From assembly GCA_937949535.1 (NCBI GenBank), contig CALEDI010000328.1, positions 1-35,520 of the forward strand: DNA of 35,520 bases, read 5' to 3'. Origin of the DNA: an uncultured Lewinella sp. (GTDB lineage Bacteria; Bacteroidota; Bacteroidia; Chitinophagales; Saprospiraceae). The translations under genes were made by a program, and so were the position numbers. Shown in pieces: positions 4,757-27,345 of this stretch (positions are counted from its first letter, which is position 1; each line of letters starts with the position of its first letter). A model generated the notes under the pieces. That model saw only the letters and a list, made by a program, of their open reading frames with translations, made no database searches and was not told where the DNA came from.

Positions 4757-5161
4757 ATGAACTACCTCGACGTAAGCGCACAAGCAGGTGCACGCTATTT
4801 TTCTGTACCTAGTACTGGCCCGGTCGTGATGCTGAACCTCCTCCGGTTCAAAGACAAGGCCGTGTTCCCCGAAGGCAAAGACCCCGGCGTATCCATGACC
4901 GGCCGCGAAGCCTACCGTAAATATATGGAATACACCCTACCTTTAGTTGAAGCCTCCGGCGGAGAAGTACTCTTCTGGGGCAAAGCCGAACACTTCCTCA
5001 TTGGCCCCGAAACAGAAACTTGGGACATGGTGCTCCTCGTTCGCCACCGCTCAAAAGAAGTTTTCCTTGAGTTCGCCCAGCACGAAGATTACCTCAAAAC
5101 CGCCTTCTACCGCTCAGCAGCTTTAGCGGATTCTCGGCTTTTGCCTATGGTTGCAGGTTAG
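4757..5161 (+). CDS. DUF1330 domain-containing protein
   Basis: Internal ATG of ORF 4538..5161 (MNYLDVSAQAGARYF...); VMLNLLRFKDKA and GGEVLFWGKAEHFLIG are typical of DUF1330. Confidence 0.8.
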   Translation: MNYLDVSAQAGARYFSVPSTGPVVMLNLLRFKDKAVFPEGKDPGVSMTGREAYRKYMEYTLPLVEASGGEVLFWGKAEHFLIGPETETWDMVLLVRHRSKEVFLEFAQHEDYLKTAFYRSAALADSRLLPMVAG

Positions 5162-5192
5162 TAGGTTGCAGGTTGCAAGTTGCAGGTTGCAG
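5154..5192. repeat. GGTTGCA heptad repeat, related to the array at 23383
   Basis: GGTTGCA GGTTAGTA GGTTGCA GGTTGCA AGTTGCA GGTTGCA; 26-mer TAGTAGGTTGCAGGTTGCAAGTTGCA shared exactly with 23383-23408. Confidence 0.85.
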
Positions 5193-5335
5193 TGTGACAA
5201 GGTTTTATAACCCGCCCCTTGCACCTGCGCTCCGTCGCCCTAATACTGATCGTCGGGCAGACAATGCGCAGTTTTGTAGCCCGACCATTTTACTATACGT
5301 ATCTTCGCCCTCTTCAACCTCAAAATAGCCACACA

Positions 5336-15451: not shown

Positions 15452-17914
15452 ATGCCTTTGCTTTTCAACTCCCCCTTGCACCTGCGTGCGCGCCTCTTCC
15501 TATTTTTCTCGCTGCTATCCTTGCTTTCTTTTGCACAGCCCCAGCCAGCATCTTCCCCCGGAAAGGTAGTTGGGACGCTGATAGACGCTGACACGGAAGA
15601 GCCTATTGGCTTCGCCAACGTCATCATTTACACTACCCGCGACAGCATGCTGACGGGTACTACCACAGATATTGACGGCAAATTCGAGTTCGAGAACGTT
15701 CCTCCGGGCGGCTACCGCGTAGAGATGAGCTTCATCGGTTACGACACCGAAAATCGGGACGTAGAGCTCAGCGAAATTGAGCGTGTTTTCTCCATCGGAG
15801 ACGTCTTCTTGGGTACCGCAGGGCAAGACCTAGACGAAGTAGTCGTTACGGCCGAGCGTGCAGTGATGGAGCTTGGCCTAGACCGCAAGGTTTTCAACGT
15901 AGAAAAATCAGTAGCCGCCGCAGGCGGCTCCGCCGAAGACCTACTGCGCCAACTGCCCAGCATCAGCGTTGACCTAGAAGGCAACGTATCCTTGCGCGGC
16001 TCCGGCAATGTCCGTTTCCTCATCAACGGTCGGCCTTCCGGTCTTGTTGGTTCAGACCCGGCTACCTACCTCAAGTCCCTCTCGGCCACCAACATAGAAC
16101 GCATCGAGGTAATTACCAACCCCGGCGCGGCCTACGACCCCGACGGGACGGCGGGCCTGATTAACATTGTGTTGAAAAACAAGCGCGACGATGGCTTCAA
16201 CGCCTCCATCAACCTCAATGCGGGCACCAACAACAAATTTGACGGCAGCCTAGACCTGAACTGGCGCAAAGGCAAGTTCAACACCTTTGCCGGTATAAGT
16301 GGTCGTTCCGACGAACGCTTCTTCCAGGGTTTTCGCGATCAAACGGGCGTGATTGAAGACAGCACCTTCAGCCGGAGATTCACTTTTGATGGAGATCGGA
16401 TCCGGAAGTCAACCACCTTCAAGCTGGGAACAGAATACAGCTTGGGTAAGCGCGCCACCTTCGGTTTGCAGGGCAACTACCAACTTGAAAACGGACAGAG
16501 CAACAACGAACGCATCACCCGCTTCTTCAACTCTGCCGGAGAACTGGACCGCGAGAGCAACCGCTTGGAAACCGAGCCTTCAGACGAGACGAACTACGAG
16601 GTAAGCGCAGACTACACCACGACCTTCAAAAAAGAAGGCCGCAAGCTGTCTGCCAACATACGCTACAGCCAAAACGACGAATCTGAGCAAGAAAACTACG
16701 ACGAAGTCATCGTTGATGGCAATGGTGTATTACTTGAAGACCTGCTTCAACAAAGCCCAGCTCTAGAAGACCGGACACAAGTTGTTGCACAGCTAGACTA
16801 CGAGCAAGCCATCGGAGAGTTCAAACTCACCACCGGCTGGCGCTCTACCCTTCAGGAACTAACAACGGACTCGGAGTTCGCTACTTTCGACGGCAACGCC
16901 TTCATCGTGAATGAGCAGCAGAGCAACCTGTTCAATTACCAGGAAGACATCCACGCGCTCTACGCCACCTTCGGCGGAAAAGTCAACGCGATCACCTTCA
17001 ACGCAGGCCTACGGGTAGAGCAAGCCTATACCACCAGTACGCTATTGGAGCCAGACTTTGAGGCCTTTGAAAACGACTACTTCAAGGTATACCCCAGTGT
17101 TTTTGCGGGTTATGCCTTTGATGACAACACTACTTTGCAGGCCAGCTATAGCCGCCGGATCAACCGGCCACGATCTAGGGCCCTCAACCCCTTCATCGAC
17201 CGAGGCGACCCCTTCAACCTACGCGGGGGCAATCCCTTTCTTTTGCCCGAACTCATCAACAGTTTCGAGCTGAACGTGCAGCAGCGCCACAGCTTGGGCA
17301 CACTAACGGCGGGCGTCTACTTCCGCCAACTCAACGACATCATCAGCCGCATCAACATCACCCAACCGGGAGGTGTCACCTTGGGGACCCGTGGGAACCT
17401 AGACCGAGGGCGCAACTACGGTATTGAGGTCATCAATACCCTCCGCATCGGTAAAAAACTGGAATTGACGGCGAGTGCGAACGGCTACAAGTCTGAAATC
17501 ATCGGTAGTGCAGACGACGAAGCGATAGACGCCAACGGCTACCTCTTTAGCGGTCGGGTTCAGGGCGGTTATCAACTGCCTGCCGACATTCAGGCGCAGT
17601 TCACGTACTTCTACCGCAGCCCCGGCGTGCGGCCGCAGGGCCGCATCGGGACCATCCAGAGTCTAGACCTTGGTTTCCGGAAGGAAATACTGGACAAGCG
17701 AGGTGCCATCACGCTCCGAGCAACCGACATTTTCAATACCCGCAGGTACCAGTTTGATACAGAACTTGCGGACCTGACCACGCGCAGCCAGTTTCAACGA
17801 GAGAGCCGCATCGTGTACATCGGCTTCCAATACAGCCTGCAACAGTTGAAGCCCGAACGCAAGCGCGGTGGTCGTGGGGGCGGCGGAGATGATGGCGGAG
17901 GTGGAGACTTTTAG
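15452..17914 (+). CDS. TonB-dependent receptor / outer membrane beta-barrel with carboxypeptidase-regulatory-like N-domain
   Basis: Likely start at MPLLFNSPLHLRARLFLFFSLL (ORF begins 15389); GTLIDADTEEPIGFANVIIY; plug domain EDLLRQLPSISVDLEGNVSLRGSGNVRFLINGRPS; C-terminal barrel and Gly/Asp tail. Confidence 0.9.
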   Translation: MPLLFNSPLHLRARLFLFFSLLSLLSFAQPQPASSPGKVVGTLIDADTEEPIGFANVIIYTTRDSMLTGTTTDIDGKFEFENVPPGGYRVEMSFIGYDTENRDVELSEIERVFSIGDVFLGTAGQDLDEVVVTAERAVMELGLDRKVFNVEKSVAAAGGSAEDLLRQLPSISVDLEGNVSLRGSGNVRFLINGRPSGLVGSDPATYLKSLSATNIERIEVITNPGAAYDPDGTAGLINIVLKNKRDDGFNASINLNAGTNNKFDGSLDLNWRKGKFNTFAGISGRSDERFFQGFRDQTGVIEDSTFSRRFTFDGDRIRKSTTFKLGTEYSLGKRATFGLQGNYQLENGQSNNERITRFFNSAGELDRESNRLETEPSDETNYEVSADYTTTFKKEGRKLSANIRYSQNDESEQENYDEVIVDGNGVLLEDLLQQSPALEDRTQVVAQLDYEQAIGEFKLTTGWRSTLQELTTDSEFATFDGNAFIVNEQQSNLFNYQEDIHALYATFGGKVNAITFNAGLRVEQAYTTSTLLEPDFEAFENDYFKVYPSVFAGYAFDDNTTLQASYSRRINRPRSRALNPFIDRGDPFNLRGGNPFLLPELINSFELNVQQRHSLGTLTAGVYFRQLNDIISRINITQPGGVTLGTRGNLDRGRNYGIEVINTLRIGKKLELTASANGYKSEIIGSADDEAIDANGYLFSGRVQGGYQLPADIQAQFTYFYRSPGVRPQGRIGTIQSLDLGFRKEILDKRGAITLRATDIFNTRRYQFDTELADLTTRSQFQRESRIVYIGFQYSLQQLKPERKRGGRGGGGDDGGGGDF

Positions 17915-17928
17915 GAAGGGCCTGAACC

Positions 17929-18070
17929 TAGGGTGTGTAATCTGCCTATGCATTTAGCCCGCCGACTATCATTAAAACGCGCAGCGTTTTTATAAGCCCC
18001 TCCCCCGTGGGGAGGGGTTTGGGGAGGGGGTTTTACGCGGAGAGAATACATTACAGATTACACTGTACTA
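17929..18070. repeat. MITE-like palindromic element, copy B (contains 63-bp core 17973-18035)
   Basis: Imperfect terminal inverted repeats (GTGTAATCTG 17935-17944 / CAGATTACAC 18054-18063) flanked by direct repeat GGCCTGAACC at 17919-17928 and 18071-18080. Confidence 0.6.
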
Positions 18071-18208
18071 GGCCTGAACCGGTGCCGAAACCTCCTCCTT
18101 GCACCTGCGGCCGCGCCCAAAATGCCTTTGTAGCACAGATACCACAAGACGATGACAGAATAACTATTCCCCCATCTTACTTTTGTGGGCATCGAAAAGC
18201 AAGTGTAC

Positions 18209-19882
18209 ATGAAAGCCACCCCGAAACGCGCCGCAAAACTCGCCAAACTACGCACCCAAGAATTTGACCTCGTCGTCATCGGCGGGGGCATCACCGGAGC
18301 CGGAGTTGCCCTCGATGCCGCTAGCCGAGGCCTCGAGGTGCTCCTTGTAGAACGCAATGACTTTGCCTCCGGCACCAGCTCAAAATCAACCAAACTCATT
18401 CACGGAGGGCTCCGCTATCTCAAGAATTTGGAGATCGGGCTCGTCCGTGAAGTAGGGCAAGAGCGCGCCGTGGTTCACGACATTGCGCCCCACCTCGTCC
18501 GGCCAGAAAAGATGCTGCTACCGCTCGTTGAAGGCGGATCGCTCGGCAAACTGACCACCAGCATGGCCCTCTGGGTATATGATTTCCTCGCCGACGTAGA
18601 AGGCGACGACAAGCGCGTGATGCTCACTAAGGAAGAAACGATGGACTACGAACCCCTCGTCCGGAAAGACATCCTGACCGGCGGCGGTTTCTACGCCGAA
18701 TACCGTACCGACGACGCCCGCCTGACCATCGAAAACGTAAAAACCGCCGAGCACCACGGCGCTACCGCCCTCAACTACACCGAAGCGACCGACTTTGTCT
18801 ACGACGACGATGGCATCATCTCCGCAGTAGTCTGCCATGACCGCTTTACGGACGAAAAAATCACCGTAAAAACCAAGCACGTCATCAGTTGTACTGGCCC
18901 TTGGGTAGACGAGCTGCGCGGGGTAGACCGCAGCATGACGGACCGCCACGTTTTCCTCTCCAAAGGCGTACACATCGTAGTCTCTCGCGAGCGGTTGCCA
19001 CTCCAGCACGCCGTCTACTTCGACGTTGAAGACGGCCGGATGTTCTTCGCCATTCCCCGCCTACGCTGTACCTACATCGGCACCACCGACACGGCCTACA
19101 AAGGCGACCCCGACGCCATCCCGACCTATAAAGAAGACGTGGAGTACATCCTGAAAGGAACCAACGCCATCTTCCCCTCCGTGAACCTGAAGATAGACGA
19201 CGTAGAATCTAGCTGGGCCGGCGTCCGGCCCCTCATCTTTGAGGAAGGCAAAGACGCCAGCGAAATGAGCCGCAAGGACGAAATTTTCGAATCAAAATCC
19301 GGCCTACTCTCCATCGCTGGCGGCAAACTGACCGGCTACCGCAAGATGGCCGAGCGCGTCGTAGACCGCGTTGGCGACCAGATGAAGGAACGCGGCGAAA
19401 AGTTGAAGGACACCCACACAAAAGACATCTACCTCACCGGCGGCCCTTTCCAAGACTTCGCGGCCGTGCTTACCTACGAGAAAGAAATCGCTGCCCAGCT
19501 AGAGGCCGCCAGCCTGGCGCCAGACCGCGCCGCCTACTTGGTGAGCAACTACGGCAAGCAATCTCCCGTCATCATTCAGGAAGCCCTGAAGCGCAGTGAA
19601 GGGACCGATGTGGCCCGCCTGGCCTGCGCCGAAGCGGCTTGGTGTATTGAGAACGAACTCACCCTCTACCCCATCGATTGGGTGGAGCGGCGCAGCGGCC
19701 GCCTCTACTTCGACATGCCGAGCATTGCGCCCGTGCTAGACGAGGTGTTGGCCGTCTTCGCCGACGCTTACCAGTATACCGAAGAAGACCTCGCTGCCGA
19801 ACGCGCCAAGGTAGAAGCGGCCATCAAGTGGGTATCTACTTTCGAGGCCGCACCAGAGGGGACGGTGGTGCATGAGGTGTAG
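18209..19882 (+). CDS. glpD: Glycerol-3-phosphate dehydrogenase (FAD-dependent)
   Basis: FDLVVIGGGITGAGVALDAASRGLEVLLVERNDFASGTSSKSTKLIHGGLRYL; HIVVSRERLPL; ORF track start 18185, in-frame ATG at 18209 (MKATPKRAAK). Confidence 0.95.
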   Translation: MKATPKRAAKLAKLRTQEFDLVVIGGGITGAGVALDAASRGLEVLLVERNDFASGTSSKSTKLIHGGLRYLKNLEIGLVREVGQERAVVHDIAPHLVRPEKMLLPLVEGGSLGKLTTSMALWVYDFLADVEGDDKRVMLTKEETMDYEPLVRKDILTGGGFYAEYRTDDARLTIENVKTAEHHGATALNYTEATDFVYDDDGIISAVVCHDRFTDEKITVKTKHVISCTGPWVDELRGVDRSMTDRHVFLSKGVHIVVSRERLPLQHAVYFDVEDGRMFFAIPRLRCTYIGTTDTAYKGDPDAIPTYKEDVEYILKGTNAIFPSVNLKIDDVESSWAGVRPLIFEEGKDASEMSRKDEIFESKSGLLSIAGGKLTGYRKMAERVVDRVGDQMKERGEKLKDTHTKDIYLTGGPFQDFAAVLTYEKEIAAQLEAASLAPDRAAYLVSNYGKQSPVIIQEALKRSEGTDVARLACAEAAWCIENELTLYPIDWVERRSGRLYFDMPSIAPVLDEVLAVFADAYQYTEEDLAAERAKVEAAIKWVSTFEAAPEGTVVHEV

Positions 19883-21944: not shown

Positions 21945-23567
<1,623 letters not shown>

Positions 23568-26396: not shown

Positions 26397-26906
26397 TTAG
26401 AGTGTACTGACGCGAACAAGCCCGTCGGTATCAATTTCTTCGACTACGATGGGCGCGCCCGTTGGGATGTCTTCCGTAGCGTTGGAGCGGGCTTTAAACT
26501 CCCGTTTGGTTCCTTTTACGTTTACTTGTACGAGGCCCTCGCCTCCGGCGGGGATGCGTAGGTAGACGGTTCCTTTCTCCATAATTGCGTCGTGAACAGA
26601 CCAATTGACGTTAGCTTGCTGGGAGAGCAAGAACTTCAGGATCATGCTCAGCACGTAAACCCCCACTGCACCTGCGGCCGCGCCCACCATAAATGCTAGT
26701 ACGGGATTGGCCTCCGAAATGAGCACCAACCGCACCACCCACGCACTGATGGAGAAGAAGGTAAGCACGCTTTTCACGGCTCCCAAACCATCTGCATCGG
26801 CGTCGAGGTCGATGTCCAAATCAAGCCCTCCGAGGATGGAGAGCAGTAGCAAAATGAGCAGCAAACCGCCGCAAATCAATGCTATATAGGTGAGTATCAG
26901 AATCAT
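26397..26906 (-). CDS. NfeD/YuaF-like membrane protein, operon partner of flotillin
   Basis: TM segments and C-terminal OB-like region (EKGTVYLRIPAGGEGLVQVNVKGTKREFKARSNATEDIPTGAPIVVEEIDTDGLVRVSTL). Confidence 0.8.
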   Translation of the reverse strand: MILILTYIALICGGLLLILLLLSILGGLDLDIDLDADADGLGAVKSVLTFFSISAWVVRLVLISEANPVLAFMVGAAAGAVGVYVLSMILKFLLSQQANVNWSVHDAIMEKGTVYLRIPAGGEGLVQVNVKGTKREFKARSNATEDIPTGAPIVVEEIDTDGLVRVSTL

Positions 26907-27049
26907 GAGCGATCAACTTTATAGGTGCTTAATTTCTATACCACAAGAACGCGCAAACATATGGTTTTAGGTTAATCGTTCGTCGAGGAAGGTGCTAGGT
27001 TGGTCGGGAAATGGGGTTTGAGTTGGGCAATTCTGGGGGCGCCGAGGTC

Positions 27050-27094
27050 GCGAAGGGCTGAACGTTGCCTACCGGCAAGCCTTCAACCCTTCGC
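27050..27094. repeat. Long imperfect hairpin
   Basis: GCGAAGGGCTGAACG-TTGCC-tacc-GGCAA-GCCTTCAACCCTTCGC. Confidence 0.6.
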
Positions 27095-27221
27095 TAAACA
27101 TGAGCCCCCTTCGGGACCAGACAGCACTAAAACTCCCCTTTGTTAAGCGGTATTTCAGGGCCGGAGGTCCACTTCCCGTAGCGTGAGGGCCCGCCCCCAC
27201 GTATTCGTTATGTATTTGGTT

Positions 27222-27345
27222 CCAAACCGCTATACATCGACTAAAACCCCCTCCCTAAATCCCTCCCCACGGGGGAGGGACTTGTGAAAACGCTACGCGT
27301 TTTAGCGTAAGGGCCACTTAATCAGCGTCAATGTATAGCGGTTTG
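27222..27345. repeat. MITE-like palindromic element, copy A (contains 63-bp core 27242-27304)
   Basis: 19-bp terminal inverted repeats CAAACCGCTATACATCGAC (27223-27241) / GTCAATGTATAGCGGTTTG (27327-27345), 18/19 matching; flanked by direct repeat ATTTGGTT at 27214-27221 and 27346-27353. Confidence 0.65.

Follow-up and report, generated by a model that had tools for sequence, protein, structure and literature searches.

Element B, the 142-bp segment at 17929-18070 of the window (the whole stretch of 35,520 nucleotides that was analysed), and element A, located further along the same stretch, are MITEs of the ordinary kind that belong to two distinct insertion-sequence types, and both carry one shared core. 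As read from its sequence, the core is a G/C-rich intrastrand triplex-type motif (TM/PIT) joined to a short hairpin, that is, a putative triplex. MITEs and the triplex motif are each known already, and their repeated union is the new part. These MITEs are probably mobilised in trans by different transposases, and each element would have taken up one and the same abundant triplex-type repeat as filler. A Neolewinella MAG (4.09 Mb, 335 contigs, 88% complete), whose assembly is broken by repeats, contains the window as its contig 328. The features of the two elements are the following.

17919-17928, no strand: left target-site duplication of element B, GGCCTGAACC, read from the sequence; 10 bp is usual in the B family
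17929-18070, minus strand (orientation of the core): element B, a 142-bp MITE, from a B family with copies of 140-145 bp
17929-17944, plus strand: left terminal inverted repeat of B, TAGGGTGTGTAATCTG; the same ends are found on insertion sequences of the relatives G011 and G004
17974-18034, minus strand: shared 61-bp core in B, with 90% identity to that of element A
17974-17990, plus strand: 17-bp core hairpin AAAACGC-GCA-GCGTTTT, from the fold, with all cells paired in 20 aligned cores
17997-18029, plus strand: triplex-type motif in B, from the sequence, the Y-loop-R-loop-R layout and a mirror-repeat test
18054-18070, minus strand: right terminal inverted repeat of B, imperfect, CAGATTACACTGTACTA, read from the sequence
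18071-18080, no strand: right target-site duplication of element B, GGCCTGAACC, read from the sequence
27048-27118, plus strand: intergenic repeat, the empty-site counterpart of a B insertion in contig C334, from the match to its joined flanks
27214-27222, no strand: left 9-bp duplication of element A, ATTTGGTTC, from the sequence
27223-27345, plus strand: element A, a MITE of 123 bp that has ends CAAACCGCTATACATYGAC and the core found in B, from its 9-bp duplications and its repetition in the genome
27346-27354, no strand: right 9-bp duplication of element A, ATTTGGTTG, matching at 8 of 9 positions, from the sequence

In the window, the 10-bp duplication stands exact and flush on each side of element B. 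An earlier note on this DNA had described a MITE-like segment with a 10-bp flanking direct repeat and imperfect inverted ends; the repeat proved to be a duplication found family-wide, and the inverted ends, GTGTAATCTG at 17935-17944 and CAGATTACAC at 18054-18063, were recovered, with the outermost bases of the element now refined to TAG...CTA. The right end of the window copy is a less usual variant, which was also observed in copies on contigs C46 and C76. Element B follows a TonB-dependent receptor gene, 14 bp past its stop codon, and precedes a FAD-dependent oxidoreductase gene. Both B (140-145 bp, with a sub-type of 164-165 bp) and A (123-125 bp) are below about 300 bp and too short for a transposase gene. 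Other repeats were also seen in the surroundings: the dispersed repeat TTGCACCTGCGNNCGCGCC has four direct copies in the window (15469-15494, 18092-18117, 22420-22445 and 26659-26684) and more that adjoin MITEs in other contigs, and clusters of a GGTTGCAGGTTGCAAGTTGCAG-type repeat, in both orientations, are located at 5159-5195 and 23383-23565.

Genome-wide copies establish the two families. The 142-bp unit of B gave at least 40 matches at 89-96% identity and element A at least 40 at 96-100%, with B-type ends at 119 sites (at most one mismatch to AGGGTGTGTAATCTG) and 89 occurrences of A-type ends. Among the B copies with both flanks, a 10-bp duplication was exact in 19 of 39 and present with at most one mismatch in 27 of 39; when lengths of 6 to 13 were tested, exact flanking repeats of B had length 10 and no other. 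Duplications of A were almost exclusively 9 bp, exact in 18 of 32 copies and within one mismatch in 26 of 32, levels that shuffled flank partners attain in about 1.3-1.4% of cases. The target consensus of B is palindromic, NNNYTARNNN, and the 10-bp duplications are centred on YTAR. Furthermore, empty sites were found: the joined flanks of the B copy in C334 match window positions 27048-27118 at 93% across the junction, those of the copy in C164 match an uninterrupted paralogue in C176 at 90%, and in contig C107 one B is inserted within the core of another B, with a paralogous empty site. For A, an insertion in C332 is matched by an empty site in C68, and another was found in C171; one A is inserted in a B end and split over contigs C181 and C182. 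Collecting core copies with their flanks and sorting the ends, as had been proposed earlier, returned direct repeats of 10 bp for B and 9 bp for A, together with empty sites.

The core was recognised from a 63-bp inverted match between 17973-18035 and 27242-27304, 90% complementary, far beyond chance and the top inverted repeat of the window, which bears out the earlier claim of a 63-bp core in opposite orientation at the latter site; it was trimmed to 17974-18034, and the match to relatives contracts to about 60 bp. On the plus strand the motif reads CCCCTCCCC (17997-18005), a CGT loop, GGGGAGGGG (18009-18017), a TTT loop and GGGGAGGGG again (18021-18029), so that its 9-nt runs and loops of 3 and 3 conform to the published TM/PIT pattern of Y-loop-R-loop-R, in which stems measure at least 6-8 nt and loops 1-6 nt. 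The 17-bp hairpin of AT/GC composition, whose stem is not G/C-rich, adjoins this motif, and in helix 1 of the 20 aligned cores three pairs show changes paired on both sides. The hairpin CCTCCCCACGGGGGAGGG occurs 160 times in the genome at no more than two mismatches, and its reversed control 0 times. Where the runs are asymmetric, A pairs TCCCTCCCC with CCCCTCCCT and other species pair CCCCTCTCC with CCTCTCCCC, the third strand tending to mirror the second. In the mirror test the third strand was better as a mirror than as a direct copy in 19 of 38 asymmetric arms, worse in 5 and equal in 14, and the summed score exceeded all 2000 shuffles, the 38 distinct arms being related and not fully independent. 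No Rfam family scored above its gathering score, the best matches lying far below the cut-offs.

A rival explanation, which appears somewhat doubtful, gives the core a function as a terminator acting in both directions or as a stabiliser of 3' ends; MITEs carrying it would be less harmful near genes, and it would hence have been selected as cargo in several MITE families. This explanation accords with the strong hairpins (z of -5.9 for the core strand of B and -8.0 for A), one of which is followed by 4-5 T, and with the placement of A and B copies, 17 between convergent and 4 between divergent genes by crude ORF calls, a count from which the solitary cores of relatives were left out for unreliable ORF calls (15 'inside'). 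However, purifying selection against insertion into promoters could account for that skew, and in tandem gene pairs both orientations of the core are found (10 same, 15 opposite). A scan of 17800-18250, around B, passed no terminator-like site, defined as a G/C hairpin with a T run at once behind it, and PIT/TM motifs were without promoter or terminator activity in earlier work, as PMC4666352 reports.

Across relatives, the core is confined to the genus and keeps varied company. When 298 genomes of the order were scored with covariance model R1, only Neolewinella exceeded 50 bits, others reaching at most about 43 bits; a GTDB-wide search for the exact core pattern, own A and B forms excluded, matched Neolewinella alone, and the viral contigs searched held no core. 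The core stands alone in some Neolewinella species and within at least four MITE families in others. Most cores of G002 and of N. persica DSM 23188 (G004) lack inverted ends, and G002 holds one B-ended copy. In N. aurantiaca (G014) cores lie in D elements (ends CAGGGCTRACGCATAGG; exact 11-bp duplications in 5 of 21), in E elements, whose ends are of IS4 type, and in one A-like element. G009 has a G-type copy with ends TAGGGTGTTCC and duplication CTACGAGAGG; F-type ends (G009, G007) are weakly supported, the duplication being clear in one copy only. A longer repeat of the own genome, C, also carries the core. Conversely, G005 holds MITEs of 141 bp that have B ends, exact duplications of 10 bp and a filler other than the core, so B ends do not need the core. 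As a separate observation, contig C16 of N. aurantiaca (L108, 426-959) has a small head-to-tail array of four D-type elements with the core, which suggests local MITE duplication.

In G002, G004 and G009 solitary copies have sharp borders and unrelated flanks, and the core lies inside several unrelated MITE families. Both observations would fit a core that is a small repeat mobile in its own right, comparable to REPs or the small dispersed repeats of cyanobacteria, and that enters intergenic DNA and MITEs by a route of its own. This reading is unlikely. No duplication and no GTAG/CGTC tag was noticed at the core borders, the tags having been looked for by eye beside the core hairpins of B, A and further core sequences. 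In the own genome, every one of the 111 cores examined with flanks has an A, B or C end on one side or both: 49 are B/B, 37 A/A and 12 C/C, and the others are one-sided, mostly at contig ends. The outcome that the earlier note had set against its reading, a core that is always a plain terminator without ends, is not what this genome presents, and it is in G002 and N. persica that most cores are solitary. Within each MITE family, moreover, the position of the core is constant, and since it always lies in the same place, no copies of one family with and without it were seen.

That homologous recombination at the common core produced A and B as chimeras is highly improbable: the core is common to both, their ends differ and a few one-sided copies (C88, C68) suggest rearrangement at the core, but the idea is largely refuted by the lack of any genuine A-left/B-right hybrid with its own duplication among the 111 copies, duplication length is specific to each family, and other species too have the core with each end type (A-like in N. 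aurantiaca, B-like in G002). Two mixed-end candidates were rejected as hybrids, one being an A inserted in a B end and the other read as flanking sequence that fits the loose B pattern by chance. Of the earlier proposal of modular or chimeric elements, modularity stands, as the core is found with several ends and the ends with other filler, and A-B chimerism falls.

Insertion sequences with matching ends were sought as sources of the transposases. Elements of about 1.5 and 2.9 kb in G011 and G004 have B ends, 10-bp duplications and a related transposase, which measures 370 aa in G004, where the element also holds an IS256-type gene, and whose frame is interrupted by a stop in G011. This B-type transposase gave a weak ISH6-like NCBIfam match, no Pfam match and nothing meaningful against solved structures; its homologues occur in 9 of 40 genomes searched, all in Neolewinella and often broken. 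For A, a 1.2-kb A-like element of G005 has ends CACACCGCTATACATT, the 9-bp duplication GTGAATGAT and an IS4-type transposase that scores 134.6 bits with NF033591 against a cut-off of 152 and exceeds the cut-off of PF01609. The own assembly, 88% complete and broken by repeats, yielded neither a complete B-type insertion sequence nor an intact autonomous partner for A or B; its nearest transposase, an intact-looking 470-aa protein on contig C84, shares 43% identity, and the ends there are different, TAGGCTGTCCAATC. The core is absent from the B-ended insertion sequences (G011, G004) and the A-ended one (G005) of relatives, and on this ground the core as part of an autonomous element was rejected.

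Two further candidates for autonomous elements were dismissed. The sequence inside an A end at C116:25501 matches a separate insertion sequence of C84, and a pair of B ends 1.6 kb apart on C86 is really an IS4-type element inserted in the core of a B copy. That element (L327 935-2404, own contig C86; 464 aa, NF033590) lies in the hairpin loop of the core with an 11-bp duplication, CCCCACGGGGG, and the related E-type MITEs of N. aurantiaca likewise sit at hairpin-like sites (CTCCTTGGGAG), which suggests a hairpin preference of these insertions. Separately, a group of transposases with TAGG... ends was observed, at L349 110-1522 (own C84), L329 2169-3281 and L334 1139-2164, with no Pfam match, scores under the NCBIfam cut-offs and 10-bp duplications on both relatives' copies. 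Its distant homologues are annotated as hypothetical proteins on plasmids of Persicobacter and Nostoc, and the group is possibly an unnamed insertion-sequence family.

In the proposed mechanism of trans-mobilisation, B would be a non-autonomous element whose TAGGGTGTGTAATCTG ends are recognised by a transposase like that of the relatives' insertion sequences of about 1.5 kb, the unit inserting at NNNYTARNNN with 10 bp duplicated. The movement of A would be the separate work of another transposase, of IS4 type, whose duplications are 9 bp long. The 61-bp core, a genus-specific dispersed repeat foreign to both insertion sequences, would have been captured more than once between unrelated insertion-sequence ends and then spread with each MITE. 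Capture may have occurred during MITE birth by faulty gap repair, template switching or microhomology, for which the end of IS-A, ...TAAAA, against the core start AAAACCCCC is a candidate. It is from the distribution of the core that we infer repeated capture; trans-mobilisation, the capture route and whatever influence the folded core may have on transcription or replication are likewise deductions.

A speculative extension, held with rather low confidence, is that the core is a passenger adopted repeatedly by unrelated transposons, its fold possibly stalling gap repair and so aiding MITE birth. If this were true, one small sequence would exploit several transposases, and the abundance of solitary triplex repeats would be explained; if the fold drives capture, a testable route for MITE birth is offered. 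Two open questions meet here, namely the source of MITE internal sequence and how triplex or fold-back repeats fill bacterial intergenic regions, and a repeat class associated with genome instability is tied to transposons. For annotation, a common core does not imply common mobility.

Compared with known systems, the elements resemble bacterial MITEs such as Correia/NEMIS, RUP and MITEAba12 in small size, lack of a gene, inverted ends and target duplications, as well as in many intergenic copies and ends common to an insertion sequence (PMC2229807); they differ in that one structured core lies between unrelated ends and that the relatives' insertion sequences are without it. A resembles the IS4 family through the A-like element of G005, with its IS4-type transposase and 9-bp duplication, but A is itself without a gene and has the core inside. 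Like REP/REPIN sequences (PMC3116915, PMC3733652) the core is short, dispersed, palindromic and intergenic; unlike them it is without a GTAG/CGTC tag and moves inside elements with 9-11-bp target duplications.

In layout the core resembles the TM motif (earlier PIT), which occurs in more than 260 bacterial genomes and forms a triplex in vitro (PMC4666352): both have the pyrimidine-loop-purine-loop-purine layout with short loops, are intergenic and dispersed, and have a third strand that tends to mirror the second. In E. coli, TM is intergenic and was reported not to be associated with mobile elements, and a triplex in vivo was not supported (PMC4666352), whereas the Neolewinella core rides inside MITEs, with an AAAACGC-NNN-GCGTTTT hairpin attached. 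A literature search of incomplete coverage found nothing linking intrastrand triplex motifs with MITEs. Finally, other triplex-like runs (CCCCTCCCC...GGGGTAGGGG..GGGG) were noticed beside C and A copies of the own genome, at C277 near 558 and in the L026 flank, and since these runs differ, several triplex-type repeats coexist.
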